A DNA stretch of 64,000 bases from Paracoccus aminophilus JCM 7686 (GTDB taxonomy: Bacteria; Pseudomonadota; Alphaproteobacteria; Rhodobacterales; Rhodobacteraceae). The stretch spans positions 124,001 through 188,000 of the forward strand of contig NC_022049.1 in assembly GCF_000444995.1 (NCBI RefSeq), written 5' to 3'. Both the position numbers and the translations under genes were made by a program. Position 1 is the first letter of the stretch. The number at the start of each line of letters is the position of its first letter. This document shows positions 23,659-39,856 of the stretch, piece by piece. Under the pieces are notes generated by a model, which saw only the letters and a list, made by a program, of their open reading frames with translations, was not told the DNA's origin and made no database searches.

Positions 23659-23965
23659 GTCGCACAAACCTTTCAATGAAAAATCGGCGATCCAGCGCGC
23701 TTAGGACATCTCCGGAATATCGAAAGTTTTCAGCCTGCTTATCCGCAACACTATGGCCGACCAAAGCATCGGTCAACATTTGGATCGGCCGTCATCCGCG
23801 CTGCTCTGCAACAGACACAATGCGAAGATTTCCGTCATCGCTCCCGCGATATGTCGCCGTCGCCGCAACATCCCGCAGGCTCCGCGGGCTAAGTAGTTCG
23901 GCATCGACTTTCTCGTCATTATCGCACAAACGTGCGCTATATCGACACTCTAGGAGATTGGCGCG
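23659..23965. other. divergent intergenic region between amiC-like and acoX-like genes
   Basis: 307 bases without a gene. It holds the four-half-site operator at 23923-23955 and a weak hairpin CCCGC/GCGGG at 23872-23888. I could not identify an AmiR-type antiterminator structure. Confidence 0.5.
23923..23955 (+). promoter_or_regulatory. IclR-type operator array, copy 1
   Basis: CGCAC-aaac-GTGCG-ctata-TCGAC-actc-TAGGA. The central GTGCG-N5-TCGAC and the left half fit the array seen at 25077, 29831 and 34618; the last half is degenerate. It ends 10 bases before the acoX-like start. Confidence 0.65.
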
Positions 23966-25084
23966 ATGCGGATAGGATTGATCGTGAACCCTTTCGCGGG
24001 CATGGGAGGGGCCCTCGGCCTGAAGGGGACGGATGGGCAAAGTCTGGCGATCGCACGCGCGCAGGGCGCAATCCCCGTCGCTGGACCCAAGGCTCGGCGC
24101 GCCTTGCGAGTGCTTGCTGCGCGCGCCCCAAAATCCGAGGTCGTGACGATACCGGGCGCACTTGGCGCGGACTGGCTGGACGGGCTCGACCTGACGACAA
24201 CAGTGCTGAATCCGGCAATCTCAACCGGCACGGCTGAAGACACGCGCGACGCGGTTCGTACGCTTTTGGCGGCTGGCTGCGAGCTGATTGTCTTTGCCGG
24301 TGGCGACGGCACAGCTCGTGACATTGCGGCAATCGCCCCGCCCGAGCTCGCGCTGCTGGGCATTCCAAGCGGGGTCAAGATGCACTCTGCCGTCTTTGCG
24401 ATTTCGCCAGAAGCGGCGGGGGGAATCTGGGCTGAAATCGAGACCAACCCATCCCAAATCGACTGGATGAATAACGCAGAAATAGTTGATATTGATGAGA
24501 GTTCTTTGCGACTCGGGCGCCTGTCACCTCGCATCTTTTCACACGTCCGCGTTCCTATCGCGCGCAATCGCATGCAAGCGTCGAAGGGCGGACCACGGCA
24601 GGATTGGTCGCAGATGATGCATTCCGCAGCCGCGGAAATCGCCGCCGAGATGGAGCCGGAGACGCTCTATATCATCGGCCCGGGAACCAGCGCGATGGCG
24701 GTTCCAGAGGCGCTTGCCCTGCGCTCGACCCTCCTTGGCGTCGACGCCATTCGGAACCGCAGACTTGTTGCCCGCGACGCCTCTCGCGGTGAGCTAGAGG
24801 CTCTGGCTGGGCAGGGTGAGGTTCGGATCGTGCTCGGCATTACCGGGCGGCAGGGCTTTTTGCTTGGCCGCGGCAATCAGCAGATCAGCCCGGAACTGAT
24901 TGCTCGCGCGGGGTTTAAAGGCCTGATCGTTCTGGCGTCAGAGCCGAAATTACTCGCCCTCGCACAGCCCGCTTTATGGGTCGACACCGGGGATCCGACG
25001 CTCGACGCGGAGTTGGAGGGCTTTGCTCAGATCCGTACGGGTGCCGGTCGCCGCTTGATGATGCGCGTGCGCAAAGCGAATTAA
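23966..25084 (+). CDS. AcoX-like ATP-NAD kinase-family protein
   Basis: 372 residues. Kinase-fold signatures: IGLIVNPFAGMGGALGLKGTDG at the N-terminus and the diphosphate-binding loop VFAGGDGTARDI near residue 111, followed by GIPSGVKMHSAVFA. This matches the AcoX group encoded in acetoin and other catabolic operons, whose role is unproven although the fold is that of NAD kinase. AGGAG lies nine bases before the ATG. It heads the genes under the shared operator array and precedes the GcvP-like pair, so a role in NADP(H) supply or cofactor phosphorylation for that pathway is plausible. Confidence 0.8.
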   Translation: MRIGLIVNPFAGMGGALGLKGTDGQSLAIARAQGAIPVAGPKARRALRVLAARAPKSEVVTIPGALGADWLDGLDLTTTVLNPAISTGTAEDTRDAVRTLLAAGCELIVFAGGDGTARDIAAIAPPELALLGIPSGVKMHSAVFAISPEAAGGIWAEIETNPSQIDWMNNAEIVDIDESSLRLGRLSPRIFSHVRVPIARNRMQASKGGPRQDWSQMMHSAAAEIAAEMEPETLYIIGPGTSAMAVPEALALRSTLLGVDAIRNRRLVARDASRGELEALAGQGEVRIVLGITGRQGFLLGRGNQQISPELIARAGFKGLIVLASEPKLLALAQPALWVDTGDPTLDAELEGFAQIRTGAGRRLMMRVRKAN

Positions 25085-25109
25085 TGTGCGCTAATCGCAC
25101 AGATGTGCG
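25077..25109 (+). promoter_or_regulatory. IclR-type operator array, copy 2
   Basis: CGAAT-taat-GTGCG-ctaat-CGCAC-agat-GTGCG. Same 5-N4-5-N5-5-N4-5 layout as the other copies. It overlaps the end of the acoX-like gene and ends 38 bases before the GcvPA-like start, implying a second promoter there. Confidence 0.7.
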
Positions 25110-25147
25110 ATATTGCCTCCGAATCAAAGTGAATTGGGGAGGCCACT

Positions 25148-26554
25148 ATGGCAGCGAGCGTTCGCGCTCACCCGTGGATGGGAAGTTCCGCGCCGGGTGT
25201 CATCGAAGACATGTTGCGCGAGATTGGCGCGGCCAGCGTCGCTGAGGTTTTTGAGCAAATCCCGCAGGATCATTTCCGAAAAAGCCTGCTAAATTTGCCG
25301 CCACAGCTGGGCTCTGAGATCGAGCTCAAGCGCGATCTTCTGAGTAAGCTGAAGAAGAACAAGAGTTGCGAGGACAATCTCAACTTCCTTGGTGCGGGCG
25401 TTTGGCAGCACCATGTCCCGGCGATTGTCGACGAGATTATCGGCCGCACCGAATTCGCGACCAATGTCTGGGGCAGCTATCAATCGGACCACGGGCGCAA
25501 TCAGGCTTGGTTCGAATTTGCCTCGCAACTCGGTGCACTTTTGAACCTCGATGTCGTGCAATTACCCGTCTATTCATGGGGTTGCGCGATTGGCCATGCG
25601 GCGCGGATGGCGGCTCGTCTGACCGGAAGGCGTAAAATTCTGGTGCCGCAATTCATGGACCCTGAGCGTCTCAGCGTCCTGCACAGCTATTGCCAGCCTT
25701 TGGAACTTGCAGGCGCGATCGAGATCATTTGCCTCGCCAACTCGACCCATACCGGCCAAATTGATCTGGCAGATCTGATCGCCAAACTTGGGCCTGATGT
25801 CGCGGCGGTTTACTTCGAAAATCCCGCTTACCTTGGTAATTTTGAAGCGAATGCTGCGGAAATTGCGCGGCTCGCGCGTGCTGCGGGCGCGGAAACCATC
25901 GTCGGCGTCGATCCTCTAAGCCTCGGCATCGTCAAGGCGCCGGGGGATTATGGCGCGGATATCGTGACCGGTCCGGTCCAGCCGCTTGGCGTGCATATGA
26001 ACTGCGGCGGTGGAGTTGGCGGCTTTATCGCGACCCGCGACGAAGAGCGCTATGTCCGTGAATATAATGGCTTTCTCGTCTCTATCGCCGAGACGCTCAC
26101 CCCGGGCCAATTCGGCTTCGGCCTAGCCTCCTCGCATCAGAACTCTTACGGTTCGCGCGAGCACGGCAAGGATTGGACCGGAAACTCGACCTATCTTTGG
26201 GCGATTGCGGGCGCGGTTTACATGAGCCTGCTTGGCCCCGAAGGTTTTGCGGAATTGGGTCGCCTGATCCTTGCGCGCGCGCGTCTTGCCGAAAAGCTGC
26301 TCGCCGAAATCGAGGGGGTCGAGATCCTTTGGCCGGCCTCGGGCTTCAAGGAATTCGTCGTCCGATTTGATGGCACCGGCCAGACCGTCGCGGAGATCAA
26401 CGCGCGCCTGCGCGCCAAGGGGATTTTTGGCGGTAAGGATCTATCAGGCGAAGGGCTCGGATTTGGACAATCCGCGCTTTTCTGCGTGACCGAGATCCAC
26501 ACGACCACCGATCTGCTTCGCTTGGCAGATACGCTGAAAGAGGTGCTGAAATGA
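25148..26554 (+). CDS. glycine decarboxylase P-protein subunit 1 homologue (GcvPA-like)
   Basis: 468 residues, GcvPA length. Fold-type I aminotransferase-like subunit with SSAPGVIEDMLREIGAASVAEVFEQIP at the N-terminus and ENLNFLGAG-like DNLNFLGAGVWQHHVP, both typical of GcvPA. The PLP lysine is on the PB partner. GGGGAGG precedes the ATG and the stop overlaps the PB start (ATGA), giving equal amounts of subunits. No GcvH, GcvT or lipoyl-related gene is nearby, so it may be a specialised decarboxylase rather than part of the housekeeping glycine cleavage system. Confidence 0.82.
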   Translation: MAASVRAHPWMGSSAPGVIEDMLREIGAASVAEVFEQIPQDHFRKSLLNLPPQLGSEIELKRDLLSKLKKNKSCEDNLNFLGAGVWQHHVPAIVDEIIGRTEFATNVWGSYQSDHGRNQAWFEFASQLGALLNLDVVQLPVYSWGCAIGHAARMAARLTGRRKILVPQFMDPERLSVLHSYCQPLELAGAIEIICLANSTHTGQIDLADLIAKLGPDVAAVYFENPAYLGNFEANAAEIARLARAAGAETIVGVDPLSLGIVKAPGDYGADIVTGPVQPLGVHMNCGGGVGGFIATRDEERYVREYNGFLVSIAETLTPGQFGFGLASSHQNSYGSREHGKDWTGNSTYLWAIAGAVYMSLLGPEGFAELGRLILARARLAEKLLAEIEGVEILWPASGFKEFVVRFDGTGQTVAEINARLRAKGIFGGKDLSGEGLGFGQSALFCVTEIHTTTDLLRLADTLKEVLK

Positions 26555-28086
26555 CCCGTTTGCCGCAATTTCACGCCGCGAAATGGGACGAACCGCTGGT
26601 GATGGAGCTGGGCCGCCCCGGCGCGCGCGGCCAGCTTTTCACGCTGCCCGATCCAGAGAGCGGGGTTGATACCGCTCTGCCCGAAGCGCTGTTGCGCAGC
26701 GATCGTCCCGCGCTTCCCGAGCTCACTGAATTCGAGGTACAGCGCCATTATCTCCACCTCAGCCAGATGACGCTTGGCATGATGGGGGTGAGCCTTTTTG
26801 GCACCTGCACCATGAAATATAATTCAAAAACCTCGGAGTTTGCGACGCTGCGCCCCGAGCTGGCCGAGCTTCACCCCTATCAACATCCCGAAACGCTACA
26901 GGGTGTTCTGGAGATCATGCATGATCTCGATGCGATTCTGCGCGCGCTTTCGGGCATGGATCAGTTCATCTTTCAGGCGGGCGGCGGCGCGGATGCGGCC
27001 TATACGATGGCCGCGGTCGCGCGCGCCTATTGGCAGGATCGCGGGATGCTGCATCAGCGCACCGAAATGGTGACCTCGATCCAGGCCCATCCCTGCAATC
27101 CGGCGACGGCGGCCTCGGCGGGCTTTACCGTCATCAACCTGCCGCTTGAGGAAAACGGCTATCCCTCGCTTGAGGCGCTGAAGGCCGCGGTCAGCGAGCG
27201 CACCGCGCTGATCATGATCAATAATCCCGATGATATGGGCATTTATAACCCGGAAATCCGGGAATGGGTGCGGGTTGCCAAGGAAGCCGGGGCGCTGTGC
27301 TTCTATGATCATGCCAATTTCAACGGCGTCATGGGCAAGCTTTCGGCGCGTGAACTGGGCTTTGATGCCTGTATGTTCATGCTCCACAAGACCTTCGGCG
27401 CGCCCAAAGCGGGTGGCGGTCCGGCGGTCGGGGCCTATGGCTGTTCGGCCGAATTGGCGCCCTATCTGCCCGCGCCCATCATCGCCAAATCGGGCGAGAC
27501 CTATGTGCTCGACGAGGACCGCCCCAAGTCTTGCGGCAAGATCCGTGAGTTCTGGGGCAATGTCCCTCAGGTGGTGAAAGCCTATGCCTGGGCGCGGGGC
27601 ATGGGCGCCGAAGGGATCAATTTGGCGTCAGATATTTCGGTCGTTGCCAACAATTATATGGATAAAAAGCTCGGCGAAATTTCTGGGCTGGCGCGCTCGA
27701 ACCCGGAGATCAGCCTCCGCCGAATGGAGATGACGCGCTGGTCGCTTCAGCCGCTTTATGAGGAAACCGGGGTCGACACATTCGCGGTCGCGAACCGCAT
27801 GGCCGATTATGGCATCGATCCCTATTGGATGAGCCATGAGCCGTGGCTCGTGCCGCAACCTTTCACGCCGGAGGCGGGTGAGCTGTGGTCAAAAGAGGAT
27901 ATCGACCTCTGGATCGCGGTTCTGGCCAAGGTTGTCGAGGAGGCGCGCGAGACACCCGAACTCGTTAAGACCGCGCCGCATAACCAGCCGATCGCGCAAG
28001 TGAAGGGCGAGGTTTTCGACGATCCCAGCCGGTGGGCCATGACCTGGCGCGCCTATCAGCGCAAGCGAGCCGCTGCCAAAGCCTAA
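26551..28086 (+). CDS. glycine decarboxylase P-protein subunit 2 homologue (GcvPB-like, PLP-binding)
   Basis: 511 residues. Conserved P-protein elements are GTCTMKYNSK (near 85-93), ELHPYQHPETLQGVLEIM and the PLP lysine K280 in MLHKTFGAPKAGGGP. Departures from canonical GcvPB include FQAGGGADAAYTMAA where QPAAGAHGE is usual, and HKTFGAPKAGGGPA in place of HKTFSTPHGGGGPG. These changes surround the active site, so substrate or acceptor may differ. It forms a heterotetramer with the PA-like protein by family analogy. The 3' end is followed by a 104-base gap with operators. Confidence 0.82.
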   Translation: MTRLPQFHAAKWDEPLVMELGRPGARGQLFTLPDPESGVDTALPEALLRSDRPALPELTEFEVQRHYLHLSQMTLGMMGVSLFGTCTMKYNSKTSEFATLRPELAELHPYQHPETLQGVLEIMHDLDAILRALSGMDQFIFQAGGGADAAYTMAAVARAYWQDRGMLHQRTEMVTSIQAHPCNPATAASAGFTVINLPLEENGYPSLEALKAAVSERTALIMINNPDDMGIYNPEIREWVRVAKEAGALCFYDHANFNGVMGKLSARELGFDACMFMLHKTFGAPKAGGGPAVGAYGCSAELAPYLPAPIIAKSGETYVLDEDRPKSCGKIREFWGNVPQVVKAYAWARGMGAEGINLASDISVVANNYMDKKLGEISGLARSNPEISLRRMEMTRWSLQPLYEETGVDTFAVANRMADYGIDPYWMSHEPWLVPQPFTPEAGELWSKEDIDLWIAVLAKVVEEARETPELVKTAPHNQPIAQVKGEVFDDPSRWAMTWRAYQRKRAAAKA

Positions 28087-28115
28087 GCTTTCAGGGGCGG
28101 GCAGGGCTCGCCCAT

Positions 28116-28153
28116 CGCACAGATGTCGCGGCAGTTTCGTGAACATCTGTGCG
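28116..28153 (+). promoter_or_regulatory. IclR-type operator pair, copy 3 (wider spacing)
   Basis: CGCAC-agat-GTCGC, ten bases, TGAAC-atct-GTGCG. Arms CGCACAGATGT and ACATCTGTGCG form an 11-bp inverted repeat. The two modules are 24 bases apart start to start, against 19 in the other copies. Confidence 0.6.
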
Positions 28154-28190
28154 CAAACCCCTTATTCTGACCCAAGACTGGAAACATCCC

Positions 28191-29030
28191 ATGACCGAGA
28201 TGACGGTTGCCGCGAGCACCTTTCCCTTTCTCTATTCGCATGATGGCCTTGGCGCGCTGAAACATCTGCGCGGCCTCGGCTATCGCGAGTTCGAGCTGAT
28301 GATCTTTCCGCCCCATTGCTGGCCGCGCGAAATGTCGGCCGAAACGCGCAAATCCTATGCCGATTGGCTGAAAGGCGAGGGCCTGCGGCTGACTTCGCTG
28401 TGCTATCCGCTGCTCGACAATAACCCGAATGGCGTCGATCAGCTGATGCGTCGATATACCTTGGATCGCTATAAGGAAGCGATTGATTTTGCAGCAGAAA
28501 CCTCGTGCCCCTATGTCGTCGCCATCCCGGGCCCGGTCAACAGCCTGATCAACCCGCCGCGCGAATGGATGCTGGAGTGGTTCGTTGAGGGCGTCACCGA
28601 GCTCGTCGCACATGCGCGCGGCACCGGCGTTCAGATCCTGCTGGAAAACGTGCCTTTCGCCTTCCTTCCGACCACGAAAGAAGTGGCCGAGGTCGCTGCG
28701 ATGATCGGCCCAGAGGTTGGAATTAACTTCGATATCTGCAATGCCGCCTTCATCAAGGAAGACCCGGCGGAGGCGATCCGGACCTATGCCAGCATGATCA
28801 AGAACGTCCATATCTCGGATTCGGGCTATGGCGAGTTCAAGCACGACCGTCTCGGCACCGGCATGGTCGATCCGGCTTCGGCGGCGGCAGCGCTGAAAGA
28901 GATCGGCTATCAAGGCGCGACCGTGATGGAAATCATCACCGATGCGCGCCAACCCGGCGTTGACCCGGATGGTGACATCCGGGCCTCTCATGCGATCCTG
29001 GCCGCAAGCGGCTGGGCGCCGCTCGGCTAA
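28191..29030 (+). CDS. TIM-barrel sugar-phosphate isomerase/epimerase family protein
   Basis: 279 residues starting MTEMTVAASTFPF; an upstream in-frame GTG at 28149 lies within the operator, so 28191 is chosen. AP-endonuclease-2/xylose-isomerase-like barrel: FELMIFPPHCWPREM, YVVAIPGPVNS, GVQILLENVPFAFLPTT with metal-binding Glu, GINFDICNAAF, NVHISDSG and VMEIITDA. Members isomerise keto-sugars, inosose or hydroxypyruvate-like substrates. Under the same operators as the GcvP-like pair, it implies a carbohydrate-like part in the substrate. Confidence 0.8.
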   Translation: MTEMTVAASTFPFLYSHDGLGALKHLRGLGYREFELMIFPPHCWPREMSAETRKSYADWLKGEGLRLTSLCYPLLDNNPNGVDQLMRRYTLDRYKEAIDFAAETSCPYVVAIPGPVNSLINPPREWMLEWFVEGVTELVAHARGTGVQILLENVPFAFLPTTKEVAEVAAMIGPEVGINFDICNAAFIKEDPAEAIRTYASMIKNVHISDSGYGEFKHDRLGTGMVDPASAAAALKEIGYQGATVMEIITDARQPGVDPDGDIRASHAILAASGWAPLG

Positions 29031-29031
29031 G

Positions 29032-29790
29032 TCAGATCAAACCGCCCTCGACCGGCAGAAGTGAGCCTGTCACGCCGGTCGAGGCATCGGAAGCCAAAAA
29101 ATAGACGGTATTCGCGACATTTTCTTCGGTCGCGATCTGGCGCATCATGGTCTGAGCGGCCAGCCCGTCGAGCGCCTCTTGCATGGTCGCGCCGCCGTTT
29201 TTCTCTCGTGTTTTCAAACGCTCAACCAGCGCCTCGGTTGCAATCGGACCAGGCGCCACGGCATTGACGCGGATGCCGCGCGGACCCAGATCATGGGCGG
29301 CGGCCTTCATAATCCCGACAACGGCATGTTTTGACGCCGTGTAAAGCACCTGCTGGGCCGCCGCGCGATAGCCATTGATCGAGGCCATCAGCACCGCCGC
29401 ACCATGGCGCGAGGCCGCCAGCGATTCGGCAAAGGCGCCGAGGGTGATCGCCGCACCCCAGACATTGACATCCATCACGCGCTGCCATTCTGCATAATCG
29501 AGCCCGTCGATCGCGCGCCACGGCGGCACCAGCCCGGCATTTGCCACCAGAATCGCGGTCGGACCGATCTCGGCGGCGAGGGTTTTCAGCTTGTCTTGCG
29601 CATCGCGCTGCGCCAGATCCAGCGCATGACCCTGCCAGCCCTCGGGCAGATCGTCCAAAGTGCCGGGCAGATCAAGGACATGGATCCGCGCACCCGCTGC
29701 CGCCAGCCGCAGCCCCACGGCGCGGCCCAAGCCCCGGCTTCCCCCGGTGATGACGGCGGTGCGGCCTTCAAGATCCTGTGCGGCAGTCAT
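29032..29790 (-). CDS. short-chain dehydrogenase/reductase
   Basis: 252 residues with NAD(P) loop TGGSRGLG, ANAG at the strand-4 motif (ILVANAG), catalytic S...YTASK and VNAVAPGPIATEA. It ends in GSLLPVEGGLI, as in FabG-like classical SDRs. AAGGA precedes the ATG. Convergent with the TIM-barrel gene (1 base between) and divergent from the hydroxyacyl-CoA-type dehydrogenase with the operator between them. Substrate unknown, probably a polyol or hydroxy acid. Confidence 0.87.
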   Translation of the reverse strand: MTAAQDLEGRTAVITGGSRGLGRAVGLRLAAAGARIHVLDLPGTLDDLPEGWQGHALDLAQRDAQDKLKTLAAEIGPTAILVANAGLVPPWRAIDGLDYAEWQRVMDVNVWGAAITLGAFAESLAASRHGAAVLMASINGYRAAAQQVLYTASKHAVVGIMKAAAHDLGPRGIRVNAVAPGPIATEALVERLKTREKNGGATMQEALDGLAAQTMMRQIATEENVANTVYFLASDASTGVTGSLLPVEGGLI

Positions 29791-29830
29791 TGCGTGGTTT
29801 CCTTCTTCTTGTTAGGAGTTCATCTATTCG

Positions 29831-29863
29831 CGCACAGTTGTGCGTAATATGAACAAACGCAAG
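29831..29863. promoter_or_regulatory. IclR-type operator array, copy 4
   Basis: CGCAC-agtt-GTGCG-taata-TGAAC-aaac-GCAAG. It sits in the 87-bp divergent region between the SDR and the hydroxyacyl-CoA-type dehydrogenase gene and could control both. Confidence 0.7.
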
Positions 29864-29877
29864 CAAAAGGTCGTGCC

Positions 29878-30855
29878 ATGTCGTCCATTGGCGATGCCGG
29901 ACAGCATCATCTTGTGAGAAAGCGTCACCTCGTGGTTCTGGGGGCCGGCTCGATCGGCATCTCTTTCGCTGCGGTTTTCCGCGATGCGGGCTGGTCGGTG
30001 AGCTTGGCCGATCCCGATGCGGACCGCCTTGGCGATGCGGCGTCGGGGATCGCTCTTCAGATCGCGGCGATCACCAGCGCCGGTCTGCTGCGCGGCGGCG
30101 CGGGTGAAATTGCCTTTACCGCCGATCCCTCGGACGCGCTGGCCCGCGCCGATCTGGTCATCGAATGCGGGCCCGAGCGGCTCGAGATCAAGCAGCAGAT
30201 CTTCGCGGATCTTCTGGCGAAAACCGGGCCGGAGTGCATCCTTGCGACCGCCTCTTCGGCGATTCCGGCCTCGCAGATTCTGCCTGATCCCGCCCAGCAA
30301 AGGCGCTGTCTTGTCGCCCATCCGGTCAATCCGCCTGCGGTCTTGCGCGTGATCGAGATTTGCCCCGCGCCCGGAACCGACCCCGCCGTCACCGCACGTG
30401 CGGGCGAATTTTTCGCGCAGGCGGGCTTTCACGCCGTGCTTTTGGGCCATGAGATCGAGGGCTTCGTGCTCAACCGCCTGCAAGGCGCGGTTCTGCGCGA
30501 GGCCTATCGGCTGGTCGATGAGGGCGTCGTCGATGTCGCGGGGCTTGAGGCGATCATGCGGCTGGGGCTTGCGCCGCGTTGGGCGCTCTCGGGGCCGTTC
30601 GAGACCGCCGAGCTGAACACCCCCGGCGGCATCCGCGCCCATGCCGCGCGCATGGGTCCGGCCTATGCCCGCATGGGGGCCGAGCGCGGCGAAGCCGTTG
30701 ATTGGCACGAGGCGCTGATCTCGCGCGTTGAGACCGAGCGCCGCGCCATGGTCGCCGCCGATGATCTCGCCGCGAAACGGGATTGGCGCGCGGCCTCGGT
30801 CGCGAAACTGGTGGCGGCACGCGATGCTTTGATGGGGCCGAATGATGAGCGATAA
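29878..30855 (+). CDS. 3-hydroxyacyl-CoA dehydrogenase-type NAD oxidoreductase (gulonate/carnitine dehydrogenase-like)
   Basis: 325 residues. N-terminal Rossmann loop VLGAGSIGISFAAVF with acidic end of strand 2 (LADPD), then ECGPERLEIKQQIFADL and HPVNPPAVLRVIEICP, then the helical C-terminal domain (FVLNRLQGAVLREAYRLVDEG, GPFETAELNTPGG). This is the single-domain group with lambda-crystallin/L-gulonate 3-dehydrogenase and carnitine dehydrogenase, which oxidise secondary alcohols of small hydroxy acids. Overlaps the next gene by 14 bases. Confidence 0.82.
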   Translation: MSSIGDAGQHHLVRKRHLVVLGAGSIGISFAAVFRDAGWSVSLADPDADRLGDAASGIALQIAAITSAGLLRGGAGEIAFTADPSDALARADLVIECGPERLEIKQQIFADLLAKTGPECILATASSAIPASQILPDPAQQRRCLVAHPVNPPAVLRVIEICPAPGTDPAVTARAGEFFAQAGFHAVLLGHEIEGFVLNRLQGAVLREAYRLVDEGVVDVAGLEAIMRLGLAPRWALSGPFETAELNTPGGIRAHAARMGPAYARMGAERGEAVDWHEALISRVETERRAMVAADDLAAKRDWRAASVAKLVAARDALMGPNDER

Positions 30856-32509
30856 GAGTTTTTCCTTCGATGGCCGCCGGATCGAAATCCGTTCGGGCCA
30901 GTCGATTGCCGCCGCGCTGACCGAGGCGGGCATTCGCAGTTTCCGCGAGACCGCCAAGGGCGAAAACCGCAGCATTTTCTGTGGGATGGGCGTCTGTCAG
31001 GACTGTCTGGTCACAGTCGACGGCCAGCCCAATCAGCGCGCCTGCATGACGCCCGCCAAGCCCGGGGCCGCGGTGCAGACGCAGATCGCGCTGCCCGAAC
31101 TTGGCGAGACCCGCGCGACGCCCCCTGTGGCCGAGGCGCGTCATCTCGCGCCGGATGTGCTGATTATCGGCGGCGGCGCGGCTGGACTTTCGGCGGCGAT
31201 CACCGCGCGCGTCAGCGGGGCCTCGGTCGTGCTTTTGGACGAGCGCAAGGTCGCGGGCGGGCAGTTTTTCAAGCAATCGGCCGAAGGTCCGGCACTTGAT
31301 CCGCAGCAGGCGGCGGGGGCCGATCTGATCGCCCGCGCCCGAGCGAGCGGCGCCGAAATCATCTCGGAAGCCGAGGTCTGGGGCGGCTTCGAGGGGCTCT
31401 TCTTCATCGCCGCGCAAAACGGCACGCCGCTGCTTCTGCGCCCGAAAACCGCGATCATCGCCACCGGCGCTTATGAGCGCCCGATCGTCGTGCCGGGCTG
31501 GACTTTGCCCGGCGTGATGACCTCGGGCGCGGCGCAGACGCTTTGGCGCAGCTATCGCACGCTGCCCGGCAAACGCATCGCGATCTGCGGCTCGGGGCCG
31601 CTGAATTTGCAGGTTGCGCAAGAGCTTGCGCAGGGCGGGGCAGAGATCGTGCTGATCGCCGAGGCGGGGATTGCGCCCTGGTCGAGCCCCGCGCAAGCGC
31701 TGGCTTTGGCCGCGGCAGATCCCGGCTTGACGCTCAAGGGGCTGCGGATGCTCGCCGGGCTGAAACGGCGCGGCGTGCCGATCCATTACGGCGCGCGCCT
31801 GACCCGGATCGACCCGCTGGCCGAGGGGCTTGAGGTCACTGTCACCACAGCCAATGGCCGCGAAACCGCGCAGGTCGATGCGGTTTTGATGAATGCGGGA
31901 TTTGATCCTCAGAACGAGCTCTTGCGGCTTTTGGGCGCCGAGATGCGCTATGACGCGGCGCGCGGGCATCTGTGCTGCCAGCGCGACGCGCAGGGCCAGA
32001 CCTCGGTCGCGGGGCTTTACGCCATCGGCGATTGCGCGGGTCTTGGCGGCGCGCCAGCCGCCATGGTCGAGGGCCGGATTGCGGGCCGGGCTGCGGCGCA
32101 AGCGGCGGGACATAGCGCGAGCGACAGCGCCGCCGATCAGCGCGCTTTGGCCCAGCACCGGCGCTTTCAGGCCAAACTTTGGGCCTTTCACGACATCGCG
32201 CCGCCGCCCGTCGCCACTCTGCCCGACGAGACCATCCTGTGCCGCTGCGAAGAGATCCGGCTCGGCCAGATCCGCGCGGAAATGGCCAGCACCGCCCACC
32301 CACATGCGGGCAATATGAAGCGCGCGACCCGCGTCGGCATGGGCCGCTGTCAGGGCCGTTATTGCGCGGCGACGATGGCGCGGATGGTCGCGGAGACCAC
32401 CGGCCAGCCGGTCGGAGACCGCTCGTATTTCGCGCCGCGCGTGCCGGTGAAACCCGTGGCGATTGCCACCATTCTTGCCGCTGAAAAGGCTCTGAACGAT
32501 GCGTCCTGA
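30842..32509 (+). CDS. amine/opine dehydrogenase alpha subunit: 2Fe-2S + FAD/NAD + BFD-like 2Fe-2S (fused HcnA-HcnB type)
   Basis: 555 residues with three parts. Residues 1-75 form a plant-type 2Fe-2S domain with C47, C52, C55 and C68. Residues about 105-420 are a pyridine-nucleotide-disulphide reductase fold with FAD loop GGGAAG (110-115) and second loop CGSGPLN (249-255). Residues 460-515 hold four cysteines (C467, C469, C503, C508) of a BFD-like cluster. This combines HcnA and HcnB in one chain, as in D-hydroxyproline, octopine/nopaline and HCN-synthase type dehydrogenases. Overlaps the beta-subunit gene by 11 bases. Confidence 0.87.
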   Translation: MMSDKSFSFDGRRIEIRSGQSIAAALTEAGIRSFRETAKGENRSIFCGMGVCQDCLVTVDGQPNQRACMTPAKPGAAVQTQIALPELGETRATPPVAEARHLAPDVLIIGGGAAGLSAAITARVSGASVVLLDERKVAGGQFFKQSAEGPALDPQQAAGADLIARARASGAEIISEAEVWGGFEGLFFIAAQNGTPLLLRPKTAIIATGAYERPIVVPGWTLPGVMTSGAAQTLWRSYRTLPGKRIAICGSGPLNLQVAQELAQGGAEIVLIAEAGIAPWSSPAQALALAAADPGLTLKGLRMLAGLKRRGVPIHYGARLTRIDPLAEGLEVTVTTANGRETAQVDAVLMNAGFDPQNELLRLLGAEMRYDAARGHLCCQRDAQGQTSVAGLYAIGDCAGLGGAPAAMVEGRIAGRAAAQAAGHSASDSAADQRALAQHRRFQAKLWAFHDIAPPPVATLPDETILCRCEEIRLGQIRAEMASTAHPHAGNMKRATRVGMGRCQGRYCAATMARMVAETTGQPVGDRSYFAPRVPVKPVAIATILAAEKALNDAS

Positions 32510-33623
32510 TTTTCTGGTCATTGGTGCGGGGATTTCCGGGCTGATGTCGGCGATCCATCTGGTCGAAAGCGGGGCGCGCGTCGCTCTGGTCGATTCGGGC
32601 GAGAATGCGGGCACTTGGGCCAATGCGGGCAGCCTGCATGTGCAGATGCAAAGCCGGTTCATGCGGCTTTATCCCGATCAGGTGCCGCAGGTCGAAGCCT
32701 CGCTGCCGCTTTATGCCGCCGCCGCCGAGGAATGGATCGCGCTCGATGCGCGTCATGGCTCGTTCGAGCTGGTGCGCAAGGGTGGGCTGATGGTGGCCGA
32801 GGGCGCCGCACAATTGGCCTTTCTGGAAAAGAAGGCGCGGCGCGAGGAAGAGCTTGGCCTCTCGGTCGAGATCCTTGACCGCGCCCAGTTGGACCAGATC
32901 GCGCCCTTTCTGGGCGATCAGATCGTGGGGGCCGAGATCTGCCACAATGAGGGCAAGCTCAACCCGTTGATTGCCAATGCGAAACTGCGCGCCTATGCGG
33001 CGAGCCTTGGGCTGACGATCCTCACCGACCGCGTGCTCTCGCTTGAAGATCACGGCAGCCATATCTGCGCGATTGGCGCGGCGGGGCGCTATGAGGCCGC
33101 CGAGGTCATCGTCGCCGCCGCTTGGGGCGCGGGCGAGGTCGTCGCGGGTCTGGGCGTCAACATCCCCTCGAAACCCGAGCCGCTGCATATGAACATCACC
33201 GAGGCCGCCGCGCCCCGGATCGGCCATTTGATCCAGCACGCGGAACGCTCGATCACACTGAAACAACTCAGTCAGGGCCAGATCGTCATTGGTGGCGGCT
33301 GGGCGGCCGAGGATCGGGGCAGGGGGATGCCGCCGGGGGTGCTCGCGGGCTCGTTTCTGGGCAATGTCGGGCTGGCGGCGCAGCTGGTGCCCTCGCTTGG
33401 CGGGCTGCGCGTGATCCGCACTTGGGCGGGGATGAATACGACGATCGACGGCGCCTCGGTGATCGGGCGGTTGCCCCGCCATCCGCGCATCATCACGGCC
33501 TTGCCCGGAGATGCGGGCTATACGCTTGGGCCGCTGGTCGCGCGCATGGCAGTGGCGATTGCGACGGGGCAGACCCCGCCGCAGGACGCCGCGCCCTATA
33601 GCCCGGCGCGGTTCGCGATCTGA
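32499..33623 (+). CDS. amine/opine dehydrogenase beta subunit (DAO-family FAD oxidoreductase, HcnC/OoxB-like)
   Basis: 374 residues. FAD loop FLVIGAGISGLMSAIHL at the N-terminus with acidic strand end (LVDSGE), and C-terminal TWAGMNTTIDGASVIGRLP...ALPGDAGYTLGPLVA, typical of DAO/sarcosine-oxidase-like proteins. In this family the DAO subunit oxidises the substrate C-N bond and electrons pass to the iron-sulfur partner and the membrane chain. Candidate substrates are N-substituted amino acids (opines), D-hydroxyproline or glycine derivatives. The stop codon abuts the convergent IclR gene. Confidence 0.86.
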   Translation: MRPDFLVIGAGISGLMSAIHLVESGARVALVDSGENAGTWANAGSLHVQMQSRFMRLYPDQVPQVEASLPLYAAAAEEWIALDARHGSFELVRKGGLMVAEGAAQLAFLEKKARREEELGLSVEILDRAQLDQIAPFLGDQIVGAEICHNEGKLNPLIANAKLRAYAASLGLTILTDRVLSLEDHGSHICAIGAAGRYEAAEVIVAAAWGAGEVVAGLGVNIPSKPEPLHMNITEAAAPRIGHLIQHAERSITLKQLSQGQIVIGGGWAAEDRGRGMPPGVLAGSFLGNVGLAAQLVPSLGGLRVIRTWAGMNTTIDGASVIGRLPRHPRIITALPGDAGYTLGPLVARMAVAIATGQTPPQDAAPYSPARFAI

Positions 33624-34505
33624 TTACTGCTTGAGCGCCCGGCTGATATTGGCGACGGTTTCCTGCAATTTCGGCAGGATATATTCGACCATCATGTCGG
33701 GCGTCATCCGCACCGTCGGCGCGCCGACATTGATCGAGCCGACCAGATTGCCATGCGAATTGTAAAGCGGCACGGCCATCGACATCAGCCCGATTTCCAG
33801 CTCATCGACGACCAGAGACCAGCCCTTGTCGCGCACATCTTCGAGGATGCGGCGGAACGCCTCGCGGTCGGTGATGGTGAAATCGGTCATCCGCGTCAGC
33901 GGGATATTCTGGATCATGCCGGGCCACATCTCGGGCGGCTGGGCGGCCAGCAGGACGCGGCCGGTGGCGGTCGTATGGGCCGGAAACCGCGAGCCGACCG
34001 AGATGCCGACGCTGATCACGCGGTGATATTGCGTGCCCGAAACATAGACGACATCGAATCGGTCGAGCACCGCCGCCGAGACCGATTCGCGCAGCTCTTC
34101 CGACAGATGGTCGATGAAGGGCCGGGCAATGTCCCAGACGCCTTTCGAGGACAGCACCGAATAGCCAAGCTCAAGCACCTGCGGCGTCAGATCGAAAAGC
34201 TTGCCATCGGCGACCGCATAGCCCTCGTGAACCAGCGTCAGCAAAATCCGACGCACGCCCGCGCGGGTGTTGCCGGTCTCGACCGCCATCTCGGAAAGCG
34301 TCATCTTGCGCCGCGTGCGATTGAAGGCGCGCAGCACGTCGAGGCCGCGCGCCAAGGAATTGACGTAATCACGGGGGCTTAGTTCAGAGCCCTCGGTGTC
34401 ATCCGCGCTATCGGGTGCGGCCGTCATCAATCCGGAACGGGCCGGGCCCGTGCGCTTTGCCGCCTGAGAGGTCTCGTCTTCAGCCCCATCGGTCTTTTTC
34501 GTCAT
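33624..34505 (-). CDS. IclR-family regulator (PcaR/PobR subgroup), probable master regulator of 24-44 kb
   Basis: 293 residues. The ATG at 34505 (MTKKTDGAEDE) is chosen; upstream codons to 34580 look non-coding. A charged, disordered leader of about 50 residues precedes the winged helix (YVNSLARGLDVLRAFNRTRRKMTLSEMAVETGNTRAGVRRILLTLVHEGYA). The effector domain has VYVSGTQYHRVISVGISVGSRFPAHTTATGRVLLA and SMAVPLYNSHGNLVGSINV. SLARGLDVLRAF is typical of PcaR/PcaU/PobR-type members. It is divergent from the ABC operon with an operator array between, and four further arrays upstream match. Confidence 0.87.
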   Translation of the reverse strand: MTKKTDGAEDETSQAAKRTGPARSGLMTAAPDSADDTEGSELSPRDYVNSLARGLDVLRAFNRTRRKMTLSEMAVETGNTRAGVRRILLTLVHEGYAVADGKLFDLTPQVLELGYSVLSSKGVWDIARPFIDHLSEELRESVSAAVLDRFDVVYVSGTQYHRVISVGISVGSRFPAHTTATGRVLLAAQPPEMWPGMIQNIPLTRMTDFTITDREAFRRILEDVRDKGWSLVVDELEIGLMSMAVPLYNSHGNLVGSINVGAPTVRMTPDMMVEYILPKLQETVANISRALKQ

Positions 34506-34617
34506 CCTAACGCCATCCTTGGTCGAACTCTCGATCTGACTACCACAAGAGCTTCGCATGAAGCGAAGGCCCTGCCACAAATTTCTTCTTGCCAGACTGT
34601 AGTGAAAAGCAATATTG

Positions 34618-34650
34618 CGAACAAGAGTGCGCTATATGAACAAACGTGCG
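34618..34650. promoter_or_regulatory. IclR-type operator array, copy 5
   Basis: CGAAC-aaga-GTGCG-ctata-TGAAC-aaac-GTGCG, the best complete copy. It lies between the IclR gene (113 bases away) and the binding-protein start (20 bases away), directly before the GGGAGG ribosome-binding site. Confidence 0.75.
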
Positions 34651-34669: not shown

Positions 34670-36001
34670 ATGAAAGAGATCGCATTTCCGAACAAGATAT
34701 CCCGCAGGACCGTGCTTTCGGGATTCGCCGCAGCTTCCGCGGTCACCTTGCTGCCCCGCATGTCCTATGCGCAGGATGCCACCCTGCGGTGGTGGTCGAC
34801 GCAGGCCGCACCCGAGCAGGTTGATGCCTACCGCTTCCAGATCGCCGCATTCGAGGCCGCTCATCCCGGCGTGAAGGTCGTTTTCGAGACCACCTCGGAC
34901 GAGGGCTATGCCGCCCAGCTCGCCGCCGCGTTTTCGAGCGGAGAAGTCCCCGACATCATCACCCATCTGCCCTCCTTCGCGGCGCAAAGCTATTACGCGA
35001 ACGGCCTGCTCGAGCCGATGGATGATGTGATCGCCGCGGTCGGGCCGGATAATTATTTCCCCGGCGCCAATGACGTCTTCCGCGCCGCCGATGGCAAATA
35101 TTGCGCGACCGGCATCGGCAACACTGCCGCCAATATGCTGTGGATCCGCCGCGATCTGATGGCGAACGCGGGCATCGCCGAGATCCCGGAAACCTGGGAC
35201 GAACTGCGCACGGCCTGCCAGAAAATGCAGACCGGCGGCGTCTTTGGTGCGCCTTTGCCGTTCGGGCGCAACTCGATGACTTCGCTGGTCTTTATCGGCT
35301 TCATCCATCAAGCAGGCGGGCAGATCTTTACCCCCGATCTGGAAATCGCGCTCGACAGCGCCGAGACCCGCAATGCGCTGGAGTTCTACCGCTCGATGCG
35401 CGAATTCTGCCCCTCGGGCTCGACCAACTACAGCTGGGGCGAAAGCCTGACCGCTTTCGTCTCGGGCGCGACCGCGACCGGGATCTATGGTGGCCGGGTT
35501 CTGGCCAATGTGAATGCGCAAAACCCCGATATCGCCGATCACATCACCTGCGCCGTCTATCCGCGCATGTCGAAAGAGATCGCGCCTTGGACCTTCAACG
35601 ACTTCCCGGCGATTTTCGTGCCCGCAAAGTCGAAGAACAAGGATTTGGCCAAAAAATTCGCGGCCTTCCTTTATGAGCCCGAAGGCTACATCAAGCAGTT
35701 GCACGCCGCGCCGGGCCATGTTCTGCCGGTGCTGAAGACGATCAATGACAACCCGCTTTACAAGCAGGATCCGATCATCAGCAAATACAGCGCCGAGGTC
35801 GATCTGATGGCCAATGCGGCGGCGGCGGGCTTCAACCTTGGCTTTGAAAGCGCGGCGCATCGCTCGAACACCAAGGCGGGCGAGATCATTGCCTCGAATG
35901 CCATCGCCGATCTGGTTCAGCGCGTCATCCTGAACAACGACAATGTCGACACCGCCCTTGCCGATTGCGTGAAGGCGATCGACGGCATCATGAAAGCCTG
36001 A
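34670..36001 (+). CDS. sugar-type ABC substrate-binding protein (SBP_bac_1), Tat-exported
   Basis: 443 residues. Twin-arginine signal KISRRTVLSGFAAASAV followed by cleavage near SYAQ. Typical cluster B binding protein: WWSTQAAPEQVDAYRFQIAAFEAAHPGVKVVFET, PDIITHLPSFAAQSYYANGLLEPMDDV, IPETWDELRTACQKM. GGGAGGAA lies upstream. It begins the long rightward operon running to 44287 and binds its substrate for the two UgpA/UgpE-like permeases. CUT1-type transporters carry oligosaccharides, polyols and glycerol-phosphate compounds. Confidence 0.9.
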   Translation: MKEIAFPNKISRRTVLSGFAAASAVTLLPRMSYAQDATLRWWSTQAAPEQVDAYRFQIAAFEAAHPGVKVVFETTSDEGYAAQLAAAFSSGEVPDIITHLPSFAAQSYYANGLLEPMDDVIAAVGPDNYFPGANDVFRAADGKYCATGIGNTAANMLWIRRDLMANAGIAEIPETWDELRTACQKMQTGGVFGAPLPFGRNSMTSLVFIGFIHQAGGQIFTPDLEIALDSAETRNALEFYRSMREFCPSGSTNYSWGESLTAFVSGATATGIYGGRVLANVNAQNPDIADHITCAVYPRMSKEIAPWTFNDFPAIFVPAKSKNKDLAKKFAAFLYEPEGYIKQLHAAPGHVLPVLKTINDNPLYKQDPIISKYSAEVDLMANAAAAGFNLGFESAAHRSNTKAGEIIASNAIADLVQRVILNNDNVDTALADCVKAIDGIMKA

Positions 36002-36061: not shown

Positions 36062-36961
36062 ATGTCCCGACACACTTCCAATCCCCTCGAGCGCCGATAT
36101 GCAGCATTGGGTCTGCTGCTGATCGCGCCGACCGTTCTGATCTTCTGTGCGGTCATCGTCTATCCGCTGCTGTCAGCGATCTACCTCTCCCTCTTTCAAG
36201 TCTTCACGCCGACGCTGCAAAGCAGTTGGGTGGGCTTGGGCAATTACCAGAAACTGCTGAGCGAAAGCGCCTTCTGGTGGAGCCTGGTCGCCACGCTGGT
36301 CTGGACCGTCGGCACGCTGACCCTTCAGATCATCTTCGGCGTCGGTATGGCGCTGGTTTTGCACCAGAATCTGTGGTTCCGCTCGCTTGCGCGCTCGCTG
36401 ATCCTCTTTCCCTATTTCCTCTCGACCGTGGTTGCGGTTCTGGTGTGGAAATGGGTCTTCAACGACCTTTACGGCGTGCTCAATCACCTGCTGATCTCAA
36501 GCGGGCTGATCTCGATGCCGATCGACTTTCTTGGCGTGATGCCGAATGCGATGCTCTCGGTCATCATTGTCGGGGCGTGGAAATATTTCCCCTTCGTCGT
36601 CATCGCCGTGCTGGCGCGGCTGCAAACCATCCCGGATTCGCTTTACGAGGCCGCCCGCATCGACGGCGCCGGACCGATTGCGCGCTTCACCGATGTGACT
36701 TTGCCGCAATTGCGCGACGTGCTGGTCGTCATCATCATGCTGCGCGCGATCTGGGACTTCAAAGAATTCGACCTGCTCTATCTGCTGACCGGAGGCGGGC
36801 CCGTCACCTCGACCGAGACCCTGCCGCTCATGGTCTATAAACAGGCCTTCTCGCTGAACCAATTGGGCATGGCCGCGGCCTATGCCGTCTCGATGATGGC
36901 GATCCTCTTGATTTTCATGGTCTTCTACATCCGCCGCAGCCGCGAGAAGGACTCCCTATGA
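36062..36961 (+). CDS. sugar ABC transporter permease 1 (UgpA/MalF-like)
   Basis: 299 residues with six membrane helices and the EAA loop YEAARIDGAGPIARFTDVTLPQL near residue 200. It pairs with the next gene to form the importer channel. Its stop overlaps the second permease start (ATGA). Confidence 0.9.
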   Translation: MSRHTSNPLERRYAALGLLLIAPTVLIFCAVIVYPLLSAIYLSLFQVFTPTLQSSWVGLGNYQKLLSESAFWWSLVATLVWTVGTLTLQIIFGVGMALVLHQNLWFRSLARSLILFPYFLSTVVAVLVWKWVFNDLYGVLNHLLISSGLISMPIDFLGVMPNAMLSVIIVGAWKYFPFVVIAVLARLQTIPDSLYEAARIDGAGPIARFTDVTLPQLRDVLVVIIMLRAIWDFKEFDLLYLLTGGGPVTSTETLPLMVYKQAFSLNQLGMAAAYAVSMMAILLIFMVFYIRRSREKDSL

Positions 36962-37779
36962 TCCGCCGCATCGCGTTCAATATCGCCGCCTGGGTGGTCA
37001 TCCTTGCCGTGGCATTCCCGCTCTTCTGGATGGTGGTCACCTCGTTCAAACCCCAGTCCGAGCTCTTCAAGCGCCCGCCGACCCTGCTGCCACAAAGCTG
37101 GACCTTCGAGCATTACGAGCGGCTGCTGACTCAGACGAAATTCCTGACCTATTTCCGCAATTCGGTCGTCTTGTCCGGGGCAACCACGCTGCTGGTGATT
37201 GTCGTCGCCACCCTTGGCGCCTATTCGCTGGTCCGCTTCAAATACCGGGGGCGCGAGAGCTTGGCCTTTCTGGTGCTCTTCACCTATTTGCTGCCCTCGG
37301 TCGTGCTGATCCTGCCGCTTTACCTGATGCTGGTGAATCTCGGGCTCTCGAATACGATTTTCAGCCTCGTCATCGCCTATACCACCTTCGCGCTGCCCTA
37401 TGCGCTGTGGCTGATGCGCTCTTTCATGGCGGGCATTCCCGAGGATCTGGAATCGGCGGCGCTGGTCGATGGCGCCTCGCGGATGGGAGCCTTCAAGGAT
37501 GTGATCCTGCCCCAGCTTTTGCCGGGCATCATCTCGACCGCGCTTTTTACCTTCATCCTCAGCTGGAACGAATATCTCTATGCGCAGGTGTTGGTGAACT
37601 CGGATGACACCCGCCCGCTGACCACCGGGGTGATGAATATGCTGGTCTCGGCCTTCAACATCGAATGGTCGCTTCTGATGGCCGCCTCGGTGATGATGAG
37701 CGTGCCTTTGATCATCGTCTTCGCATTCCTGCAAAGCTATCTGACCCGCGGCTTCGGCGCGGGCGCTGTAAAGGGCTGA
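36958..37779 (+). CDS. sugar ABC transporter permease 2 (UgpE/MalG-like)
   Basis: 273 residues with six membrane helices and EAA loop LESAALVDGASRMGAFKDVILPQLLPGI, and the periplasmic LTTGVMN segment typical of MalG/UgpE. It ends 5 bases before the ATPase gene. Confidence 0.9.
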   Translation: MIRRIAFNIAAWVVILAVAFPLFWMVVTSFKPQSELFKRPPTLLPQSWTFEHYERLLTQTKFLTYFRNSVVLSGATTLLVIVVATLGAYSLVRFKYRGRESLAFLVLFTYLLPSVVLILPLYLMLVNLGLSNTIFSLVIAYTTFALPYALWLMRSFMAGIPEDLESAALVDGASRMGAFKDVILPQLLPGIISTALFTFILSWNEYLYAQVLVNSDDTRPLTTGVMNMLVSAFNIEWSLLMAASVMMSVPLIIVFAFLQSYLTRGFGAGAVKG

Positions 37780-37784
37780 TACCT

Positions 37785-38861
37785 ATGGCCAAAGTCGTCT
37801 TCGATAACGTCCGCAAGGAATTCGGTGCTTATACCGCGCTGAACGGGCTCAACCTCACCATCAATTCGGGCGAATTCGTGGCGCTGCTCGGGCCTTCGGG
37901 CTGCGGCAAGACCACGACGCTCAGGATGCTTGCCGGGCTGGAAGCGCCGAGCTCGGGCGATATCCGCATCGGCGAGAACCGGGTCAATGACATGGCCCCG
38001 GGCGAGCGTGACATTGCGATGGTGTTTCAGAGCTATGCGCTCTATCCCCATATGACCGTTGCAGAAAACATCGCCTATCCGCTGAAGAAACGCGGCGTGC
38101 CCAAGGCCGAGCATCCCGCCAAGGTCGCGCGCATCGCCGAGATGCTGCATCTCGAGCCGATGCTGAAACGCAAGCCGCGCCAGCTCTCGGGCGGGCAGCA
38201 GCAGCGCGTGGCGCTTGGCCGCGCGTTGGTGCGCGATCCCAAGGTCTTCCTGCTCGACGAGCCGCTCTCGAACCTCGACGCCAAGCTGCGCGGCCATATG
38301 CGTGCCGAGCTGATCGAGCTGCACCGCACGCTTGGCCGCACCATGGTCTATGTCACCCATGACCAGCTTGAAGCCATGACCATGGCCAATCGCATCGCAA
38401 TCATGGAAGGCGGCAATCTTCAGCAATTCGCGCCGCCCGCCGAGGTCTATGCCAAGCCCGCCAATCGCTTTGTCGCAAGCTTCATCGGCACGCCCGGCAT
38501 GACGCTGATTGACGGCGAGCTGGTCTCGGAGGCGGGCGGTCTTGCCTTCCGCGCGCCGGGCCTCTCGCTTGGTCTGCCCGCGCTTACCGACAAGGCGCGT
38601 CCCGGCGCCGCCGCTTACGGCATCCGCCCCGAGGATATTCATCTGGGCGAAGGCGATCTGCGCGGTCGCGTCATTCTGGTCGAACAGACCGGGCATGAAA
38701 ACATCATCACTCTGATCGCGGGCGAGGGTCACCACCTCATCGTCCGCGTCCCCGGAACCGAAATCTACCGCGTGGGCGAAGAGCTTCCCCTGCGCATCGA
38801 CACCCGCCGCGTCCATGTCTTCGAGACCGGACCCAACGGCGCCAGACTGAACCGGGACTGA
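37785..38861 (+). CDS. CUT1 sugar ABC transporter ATPase (UgpC/MsmK-like)
   Basis: 358 residues starting MAKVVFDNVRKEFG. Walker A GPSGCGKTT, signature [19 protein letters not shown], Walker B VFLLDEPLSNLDAKLR, switch VTHDQ, then a C-terminal TOBE domain (AAYGIRPEDIHLGEGDLRGRVILVEQTGHENIITL). The length and TOBE domain match UgpC/MalK-type ATPases. It may also energise other CUT1 importers. Confidence 0.92.
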   Translation: MAKVVFDNVRKEFGAYTALNGLNLTINSGEFVALLGPSGCGKTTTLRMLAGLEAPSSGDIRIGENRVNDMAPGERDIAMVFQSYALYPHMTVAENIAYPLKKRGVPKAEHPAKVARIAEMLHLEPMLKRKPRQLSGGQQQRVALGRALVRDPKVFLLDEPLSNLDAKLRGHMRAELIELHRTLGRTMVYVTHDQLEAMTMANRIAIMEGGNLQQFAPPAEVYAKPANRFVASFIGTPGMTLIDGELVSEAGGLAFRAPGLSLGLPALTDKARPGAAAYGIRPEDIHLGEGDLRGRVILVEQTGHENIITLIAGEGHHLIVRVPGTEIYRVGEELPLRIDTRRVHVFETGPNGARLNRD

Positions 38862-38935: not shown

Positions 38936-39856
38936 ATGAACCGTACCTCCATCGCTTGGACGGGGCCGATGCCGGCTGTCACCACGCCATTTCGCGCCGA
39001 TCACAGCATTGATGAGGAAAGCCTGATCGCCAATATGGAGCGGCTTTTCGACGCCGGCGCGACCGGCATGGTCGTTGGCGGCTGCACGGGCGAATTCTGG
39101 ACGCTGTCGCTCGCCGAGCGCGCGCATCTGGCCAAGCTCACCGCCACCGCCTGCCAGGGCAAAGGCCCGGCCATTCTCGGCACCGGCAGCATCCTCGAAG
39201 GCGAGGTCATCGAGCAGATCCATGCCGCGAAAGAGGCCGGTATCGACGGCGTTCTGGTGCTGCCGCCCTATTTCGCCCATCTGACCGAATCCGAGATCAT
39301 CGCCCATTATGAGGCGGTGAATGACAAATCCGTCCTGCCGATCATCCTTTACAACATTCCGGGCAATGCCGGGAATGCGATCACCCCCGCGATTGCCGAC
39401 CGGCTCGCCGATCTCGACAAGGTGGTGGCGATCAAGGAATCCTCGGGCAATTGGACGAATTTCCACGACACGCTCTTGCGCGTGAAAGAGCGCATCCGGG
39501 TCTATTGCGGGCCCTCCTCGGTCTTTGGGGTTGCCGCGACCTTGGCGGGGGCGGATGGTCTGATCGACTGTTTCCCCAACGTCTGGGACAAGGGCTGCCT
39601 TGATCTGTGGCACGCCACCAAAGCCGGGCGGATGGAGGAGGCTTGGGAGCTTCAGCGCATCGGCATCGCCATGACCCAGCTGTTCGTCGCGGGCGGGCGT
39701 ACGCTTTATCCTTCGACGAAAGCCGTGATGAACCACCTCGGCCTGCCCGGCGGCGGCTTCCCCCGTCCGCCTTTGCGCCCGCTCACCGGCGCGCAAGAGG
39801 CCGAACTTCTCGCCGGTATGGACGCACTGCTCGCGCAATATGGAAAGGTCGCGTAA
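38936..39856 (+). CDS. DapA/N-acetylneuraminate lyase-family aldolase or dehydratase
   Basis: 306 residues, (beta/alpha)8 barrel. Schiff-base lysine K167 (VVAIKESSG) and tyrosine Y139 (ILYNIPG) are present; the ketoacid loop reads GGCTGEF where DHDPS has GGTTGE, so this is not biosynthetic DapA. Related catabolic enzymes cleave or dehydrate 2-keto-3-deoxy sugar acids or deaminate pyrroline-4-hydroxy-2-carboxylate. With the SDR, aminotransferase and aldehyde dehydrogenase genes that follow, it should process an oxidised sugar-like or hydroxyproline-like acid. GGAG lies upstream; its stop overlaps the next ATG (TAATG). Confidence 0.87.
   Translation: MNRTSIAWTGPMPAVTTPFRADHSIDEESLIANMERLFDAGATGMVVGGCTGEFWTLSLAERAHLAKLTATACQGKGPAILGTGSILEGEVIEQIHAAKEAGIDGVLVLPPYFAHLTESEIIAHYEAVNDKSVLPIILYNIPGNAGNAITPAIADRLADLDKVVAIKESSGNWTNFHDTLLRVKERIRVYCGPSSVFGVAATLAGADGLIDCFPNVWDKGCLDLWHATKAGRMEEAWELQRIGIAMTQLFVAGGRTLYPSTKAVMNHLGLPGGGFPRPPLRPLTGAQEAELLAGMDALLAQYGKVA

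Follow-up and report, generated by a model that had tools for sequence, protein, structure and literature searches.

A predicted three-box operator of an IclR-family regulator at AcoX-like, GcvP-like, oxidase and importer genes of Paracoccus aminophilus

Genes and predicted operators of the locus

We analysed a 64,000-nucleotide stretch of Paracoccus aminophilus JCM 7686 (contig NC_022049.1, positions 124,001 to 188,000; hereafter the window, in whose own numbering positions are given). An IclR-family regulator of the PcaR/PcaU/PobR subfamily is encoded at 33624..34505 on the reverse strand (TIGR02431, 291.3 bits against a cut-off of 284.75; Pfam PF09339 HTH_IclR and PF01614 IclR_C), and a short element recurs in the promoter regions of the genes around it. 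The element is a predicted 24-bp operator of three half-sites, or boxes, CGMAC-N4-GTKCR-N5-YGMAC, and not the 33-bp array of four half-sites that an initial annotation had described. We consider it very likely that the IclR protein binds this operator and governs the adjoining operons as one regulon, most likely by repressing them.

The gene set begins on the forward strand with an AcoX-like protein (23966..25084), which matches the N and C NAD_kinase families of Pfam and had no NCBIfam match and no PDB match at E ≤ 0.001. Its name is that given in the initial annotation; AcoX is not known to have an established role. Next on the same strand are proteins resembling glycine dehydrogenase subunit 1 (GcvPA; 25148..26554, NF001696 at 393.1 bits, cut-off 364) and subunit 2 (GcvPB; 26551..28086, NF003346 at 481 bits, cut-off 441), and a xylose isomerase-like TIM-barrel protein (28191..29030, Pfam PF01261). 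A short-chain dehydrogenase (SDR; 29032..29790, Pfam PF13561) is encoded on the reverse strand, divergently from a predicted forward-strand operon for a 3-hydroxyacyl-CoA dehydrogenase-like protein (29878..30855; nearest solved relative lambda-crystallin), a sarcosine-oxidase-alpha-like FAD/2Fe-2S oxidoreductase (30842..32509; from family matches and solved relatives), which bears the label opine-oxidase A, and a FAD-dependent amino-acid oxidase-like protein of the DAO family (32499..33623; from family matches). Beyond the regulator gene, the forward strand encodes the substrate-binding protein of an ATP-binding cassette (ABC) importer (34670..36001; family 1, sugar type, from a domain match and solved relatives, to which it bears only a general sugar-type resemblance) and the importer's two permeases and ATPase (36062..38861, from domain matches). 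A DHDPS-family aldolase, two SDRs, a class III aminotransferase and an aldehyde dehydrogenase (38936..44287, forward strand) presumably make up the rest of the importer operon.

The window was scanned on both strands for the three-box pattern, which has 15 specified letters, with Y also permitted in the first box. Three predicted operators match at 15/15: 25086..25109 on the reverse strand, before the GcvPA-like gene; 29831..29854 on the forward strand, common to the divergent SDR and dehydrogenase-like genes; and 34618..34641 on the forward strand, before the importer operon. Two predicted sites are weaker. The one before the AcoX-like gene (23923..23946, forward strand; CGCAC-N4-GTGCG-N5-TCGAC) scores 13/15, with 3/5 letters in its third box, and the one before the TIM-barrel gene (28140..28153, forward strand; TGAAC-ATCT-GTGCG) is a clean two-box palindrome, with an additional CGCAC half-site at 28116, that scores 12/15 as a three-box site.

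The three strong sites, which are kept in relatives, have boxes of alternating direction and combine both spacings, as three-box IclR operators do. They also belong to the operator class GTNCG-N5-6-CGNAC, exactly at 25086 (GTGCG-N5-CGCAC) and, at 29840 and 34627, with one half carrying T instead of C. The protein's match to the PcaR/PcaU/PobR model is in line with the kind of site that the initial annotation ascribed to PcaR/PobR-type proteins. Control of protocatechuate or 4-hydroxybenzoate genes was not found, the operator-bearing genes being those for transport, the oxidase, AcoX and the GcvP-like proteins. Because these genes differ, we assign the protein to the PcaR/PcaU/PobR subfamily by sequence and not to PcaR or PobR by role.

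Specificity and conservation of the operator

Full three-box matches number four in the window, against a mean of 0.01 and a maximum of 1 in 200 first-order Markov simulations; they represent three places, as 34618–34650 matches in both directions. All four lie inside the 707 bp of the five promoter gaps, where 2000 simulations gave a mean of 0.0005. Looser matches were not enriched over the whole window: 8 were observed at ≥13/15 against a simulated mean of 8.95, and 65 at ≥12/15, which is below the 86 of the simulations. In the five promoter gaps alone, matches of ≥13/15 were enriched (5 against 0.08 expected). Since the pattern was derived from the window's own sites, these enrichment figures are somewhat flattering, and the independent test is a model from relatives only.

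This model, R1, was built from sequence only, from 32 sites of relatives with the window excluded, and was run over the organism's own 4.87-Mb genome. Its three best matches were the three strong sites of the window, at 34618–34641 (20.4 bits, E 0.0023), 25086–25109 (20.0 bits, E 0.0032) and 29831–29854 (19.0 bits, E 0.0064), and the fourth, on C1, had an E value of 0.52. The TIM site reached E 6–8 genome-wide (9.4–9.8 bits in the window scan), and the AcoX site (9.3 bits in the window scan) was absent among the matches listed. The matrix scan that the initial annotation proposed as a check thus returned three of its promoters, with everything else far weaker. A short pattern with one mismatch allowed was also tried on the genome and rejected as too loose (162 forward and 164 reverse matches, against 118 and 134 for a reversed control).

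Apart from this genome, 294 genomes of the family were searched, and 12 of them have an orthologue of the IclR protein (E ≤ 1e-70); these orthologues are 55–82% identical and come from 12 different genera, which we guess to be Rhodobacteraceae-like. We compared the stretches around the orthologues' iclR and AcoX genes and scored the best match to the three-box pattern in the 250 bp before each gene. As far as the contigs extend, the genes largely keep their order (TIM, SDR, dehydrogenase, the two oxidase subunits, iclR, importer, aldolase, SDRs and aminotransferase), with AcoX-GcvPA-GcvPB nearby or on a separate contig. In three distant relatives, G211, G025 and G002, the dehydrogenase operon was found without a close relative of the divergent SDR at its side, and the aminotransferase lies elsewhere in the importer operon; the order corresponding to 38936..44287 is otherwise similar, as far as contigs extend.

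Sites before these genes recur with the regulator. Between iclR and the importer, a site of ≥14/15 is present in 11/11 testable relatives, and the dehydrogenase operon has one of ≥13/15 in 10/10. The GcvPA gene has a site of ≥14/15 in 8 of the 12 relatives. For AcoX the figures are 5/11 testable relatives at ≥14/15 and 8/11 at ≥13/15, where the AcoX gene of G118 gave two separate partial matches close to the end of a contig. The TIM gene has a site of ≥13/15 in 8/9 testable relatives, the ninth being a distant match that was set aside: this 'TIM' match of G002 lies 219 bp away inside a region matching another gene and was left out of R1 (32 of 33 sites used), while still being counted in the sets of 41 sites and 38 relative sites below. 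None of the 12 relatives lacks an operator of ≥14/15 before a gene of the set.

Beyond the orthologue-bearing genomes, the operator class is wider. At least one exact three-box match was found in 98 of the 295 genomes, among them 12 of the 13 with the IclR orthologue (this genome included; G211 has none). Single matches mean little, since one or two matches to the reversed control pattern likewise turn up in several genomes. Among the matches listed, six A/T-rich cases in genomes without the orthologue were picked by eye, and in three of them another IclR gene (34–40% identical) lies beside the exact match: in G137 (gene at C4:238398, between sites 235254 and 240899), in G113 (gene at C28:1404, beside site 2183) and in G017 (gene at C54:25235, matched with one stop, beside site 25146). 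No IclR gene was found beside the exact match in the other three, G215, G220 and G146. Because exact sites adjoin other IclR genes, the class is not confined to this orthologue, which the literature would lead one to expect. The window itself holds a second IclR-family gene (51306–52175); a weak R1 match lies just before it at 51271–51286 (window scan, 8.0 bits and E 0.3).

Proposed mechanism and rival explanations

From these sequences we infer that the IclR protein (33624–34505) binds the 24-bp operator through three half-sites of 5 bp each that alternate in direction: CGMAC, then 4 bp, GTKCR, then 5 bp, and YGMAC. The half-sites start 9–10 bp apart and therefore should face one side of the helix. 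The three strong and two weaker operators would place the AcoX/GcvPA/GcvPB/TIM-barrel group, the divergent SDR, the dehydrogenase/oxidase operon and the ABC-importer operon under one regulator, if the operons extend as predicted. The bound regulator would block RNA polymerase, repression being its most likely action, and a natural guess is that repression would be lifted by binding of the imported compound, an intermediate or a product to the C-terminal domain.

The predicted recognition helix offers a further link between protein and operator. In an alignment of 13 orthologues, the stretch that should correspond to this helix is NTRAG in nine proteins, MSRAT in three and ITRAA in one. Half-sites YGxAC carry A as their third letter (the CGAAC type) in 15 of 18 cases in the MSRAT group (3 genomes, 6 sites) and in 41 of 99 cases in the NTRAG group (9 genomes, 33 sites), which suggests that the half-site shifts in the direction that the helix change would give.

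Several points weigh against one repressed regulon. The helix comparison draws on few, related genomes, with only six sites in the MSRAT group. The AcoX (13/15) and TIM (12/15) sites are weak in this genome, and of the five promoters of the initial annotation three top the genome-wide scan, where nothing else scores comparably. That scan scored 150 of 832 first-look candidates. No GcvPA site was found within 250 bp upstream in the distant relatives G211, G025 and G002, and that of G162 reaches 12/15; likewise, no AcoX site was found within that distance in G040 and G118, and that of G184 reaches 12/15. Exact matches also occur in 86 of the 282 genomes without the orthologue. The information in the box columns is inflated, because sites were picked by box match, which was not so for the spacers and the fourth place. 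As for repression, two promoter-like elements were observed in 11 kb against 2.8 in shuffles, which is not above chance, and PcaU and PobR are activators. BhcR of Paracoccus denitrificans is likewise described as an IclR-type activator (PMC11323563), and the IclR family is said to include activators, repressors and dual regulators (PMC8222616).

Activation from these sites, or a dual action, is thus an alternative to be taken seriously, which we nevertheless regard as unlikely. The operators of ≥13/15 end 19–40 bp before the start codons (28 bp for the importer, 23 bp for the dehydrogenase, 40 bp for the SDR, 38 bp for GcvPA and 19 bp for AcoX). A repressor lying over the transcription start is therefore likelier than an activator, and the importer and dehydrogenase operators in particular leave little room for a promoter downstream. 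A promoter-like element, TTGCCA-16-AATATT, lies just upstream of the importer operator (34589..34616, forward strand; a consensus match only, in number not above chance as noted) and ends 2 bp before it. The importer operator of several relatives is similarly preceded, by eye, by TTGC, about 20 bp and a TTATAT-like sequence ending at box one. It is far less probable that the operators serve a different regulator, for instance the paralogue on C3 (39% identical). PcaR-type proteins share the half-site class, according to the main text of PMC8222616, and a weak partial R1 match (E 1.7) overlaps the start of the paralogue (C3:35233-35968). Against this, the sites track the orthologue of the window protein, including the site of ≥14/15 between iclR and importer in all testable relatives. 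The paralogue is perhaps this genome's true PcaR.

It is also improbable, if a shade less so, that the operator proper is the whole 33-bp array of four half-sites with a tetramer on it, as in the initial annotation. The four central 15-mers that it reported were all found where it had placed them, and its layout is complete at 34618 (CGAAC-AAGA-GTGCG-CTATA-TGAAC-AAAC-GTGCG). The other places fell short. At 25077 the three boxes stand and the outer half is CGAAT, with 4/5 letters; at 23923 the third half is TCGAC (3/5) and the fourth place TAGGA (2/5); at 29831 the fourth place is GCAAG (2/5). Of the two modules reported at 28116–28153, the second is good, whereas the first has only one half-site (CGCAC, then GTCGC, 2/5). 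Tandem sites spaced by 18–22 bp have been reported for 94 groups of the IclR family (PMC8222616, main text), which would favour an array, yet no second palindrome at that distance is conserved here. Across 41 unique sites of ≥14/15, which include three from the window, the three boxes carry the information, together with the A/T-rich spacers and near flanks. The fourth place matches at least 4/5 letters in two of the 41, both in the window, and in 0/38 sites of relatives, against 6.7% of flanking words; its columns hold 0.02–0.37 bits, compared with 0.8–2.1 bits in 13 of the 15 box columns. The mirror-image position, ahead of box one, gives a match in 2/38 relative sites, both before TIM genes, and the fourth half-site GTGCG at 34646–34650 was not seen in the relatives examined. 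The fourth half-site thus belongs to 34618, perhaps also to 25077, in this genome. Chance similarity or a mobile repeat, finally, has next to no probability as the source of the element. Its best argument is that the exact pattern, which has six matches in the genome, has three in the window and three elsewhere (C3:100073, C6:11336 and C6:195880; L003–L005) that all lie within DDE transposase genes, two of the copies being identical over 1055 bp. None of these three, which we rejected as operators, is among the 12 listed matches of R1, and the string is apparently there by coincidence. The excess of full matches in the window over simulation and the site of ≥14/15 in every relative also speak against this origin.

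The regulated pathway and known systems

Judged by their families, the genes of the predicted regulon point to uptake and oxidation of an N-substituted amino acid, an amino sugar or an opine-like compound, with the sugar-type importer, the two flavoproteins, the lambda-crystallin-like dehydrogenase, the aldolase, the aminotransferase and the aldehyde dehydrogenase as the grounds. A fused-length GcvP (a 989-codon open frame) is encoded elsewhere in the genome (C1:3502476-3504596; L207, L209), so the split pair at 25148–28086 is an additional, second system. It is possible, though somewhat less likely than not, that an undescribed catabolic route is encoded here, in which the AcoX-like protein, the second split glycine-decarboxylase-like pair and the opine-oxidase-like enzyme act on the imported compound. 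If this is true, the three-box operator is a handle for finding the inducer and hence the substrate. In the open-licence literature (titles and abstract openings, among the matches listed), no published account of this gene set, pathway or regulon was found.

In widely separated phyla, among them archaea, AcoX-like genes are often found beside GcvPA- and GcvPB-like genes (L056–L135). Among 80 of 140 AcoX loci, many of them short, GcvPA was matched in 32 and GcvPB in 35. Six loci (L062, L068, L070, L071, L075 and L115; five of them from Acidimicrobiia) hold relatives of HCDH, DHDPS, OoxA, GcvPB, GcvPA and AcoX together, with a GcvP pair 59–63% identical to that of the window. This suggests that the pathway may cross phyla. 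In the window, a urea/amide-type solute-binding protein is encoded beside an AmiR-like ANTAR protein (21759–23676), transcribed away from the regulon.

This prediction links seventeen genes, the last five only through a presumed operon, to a single regulator with strong operators that stand out within the whole genome. A conserved regulon with AcoX and GcvPA/GcvPB would confine the search to a single inducible pathway. As regards the IclR family, three-box operators have been sampled in 13 genomes, together with a matching change of recognition helix and half-site.

Three-box architecture is already known, and what is new is this regulon as a further case. Three-box sites of alternating direction were predicted for 32 IclR-family orthologous groups (Suvorova and Gelfand 2021, PMC8222616); there, as here, alternating boxes combine both dimer spacings, and most site centres lie at −20 to −80 from the start codon. 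A word search of the main text of that paper found no mention of COG0403, COG1003, Rhodobacter, Roseo or Paracoccus. It names PcaU, PobR and HmgR as earlier three-box cases and states that the additional repeat is needed for PcaU binding. The sites of PcaU and PobR of Acinetobacter and of HmgR resemble those described here in having an inverted pair GTNCG-N5-6-CGNAC with an external half-site (PMC8222616, main text). These three proteins govern genes for aromatic compounds, none of which was recognised among the genes of the window regulon. BhcR of Paracoccus denitrificans belongs to the IclR family like the window protein, but the latter matches the BhcR NCBIfam model weakly (131.7 bits, far under the cut-off of 350), and the genes are different. 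PcaU and PobR activate their genes, whereas the position of the operators in the window regulon suggests repression.

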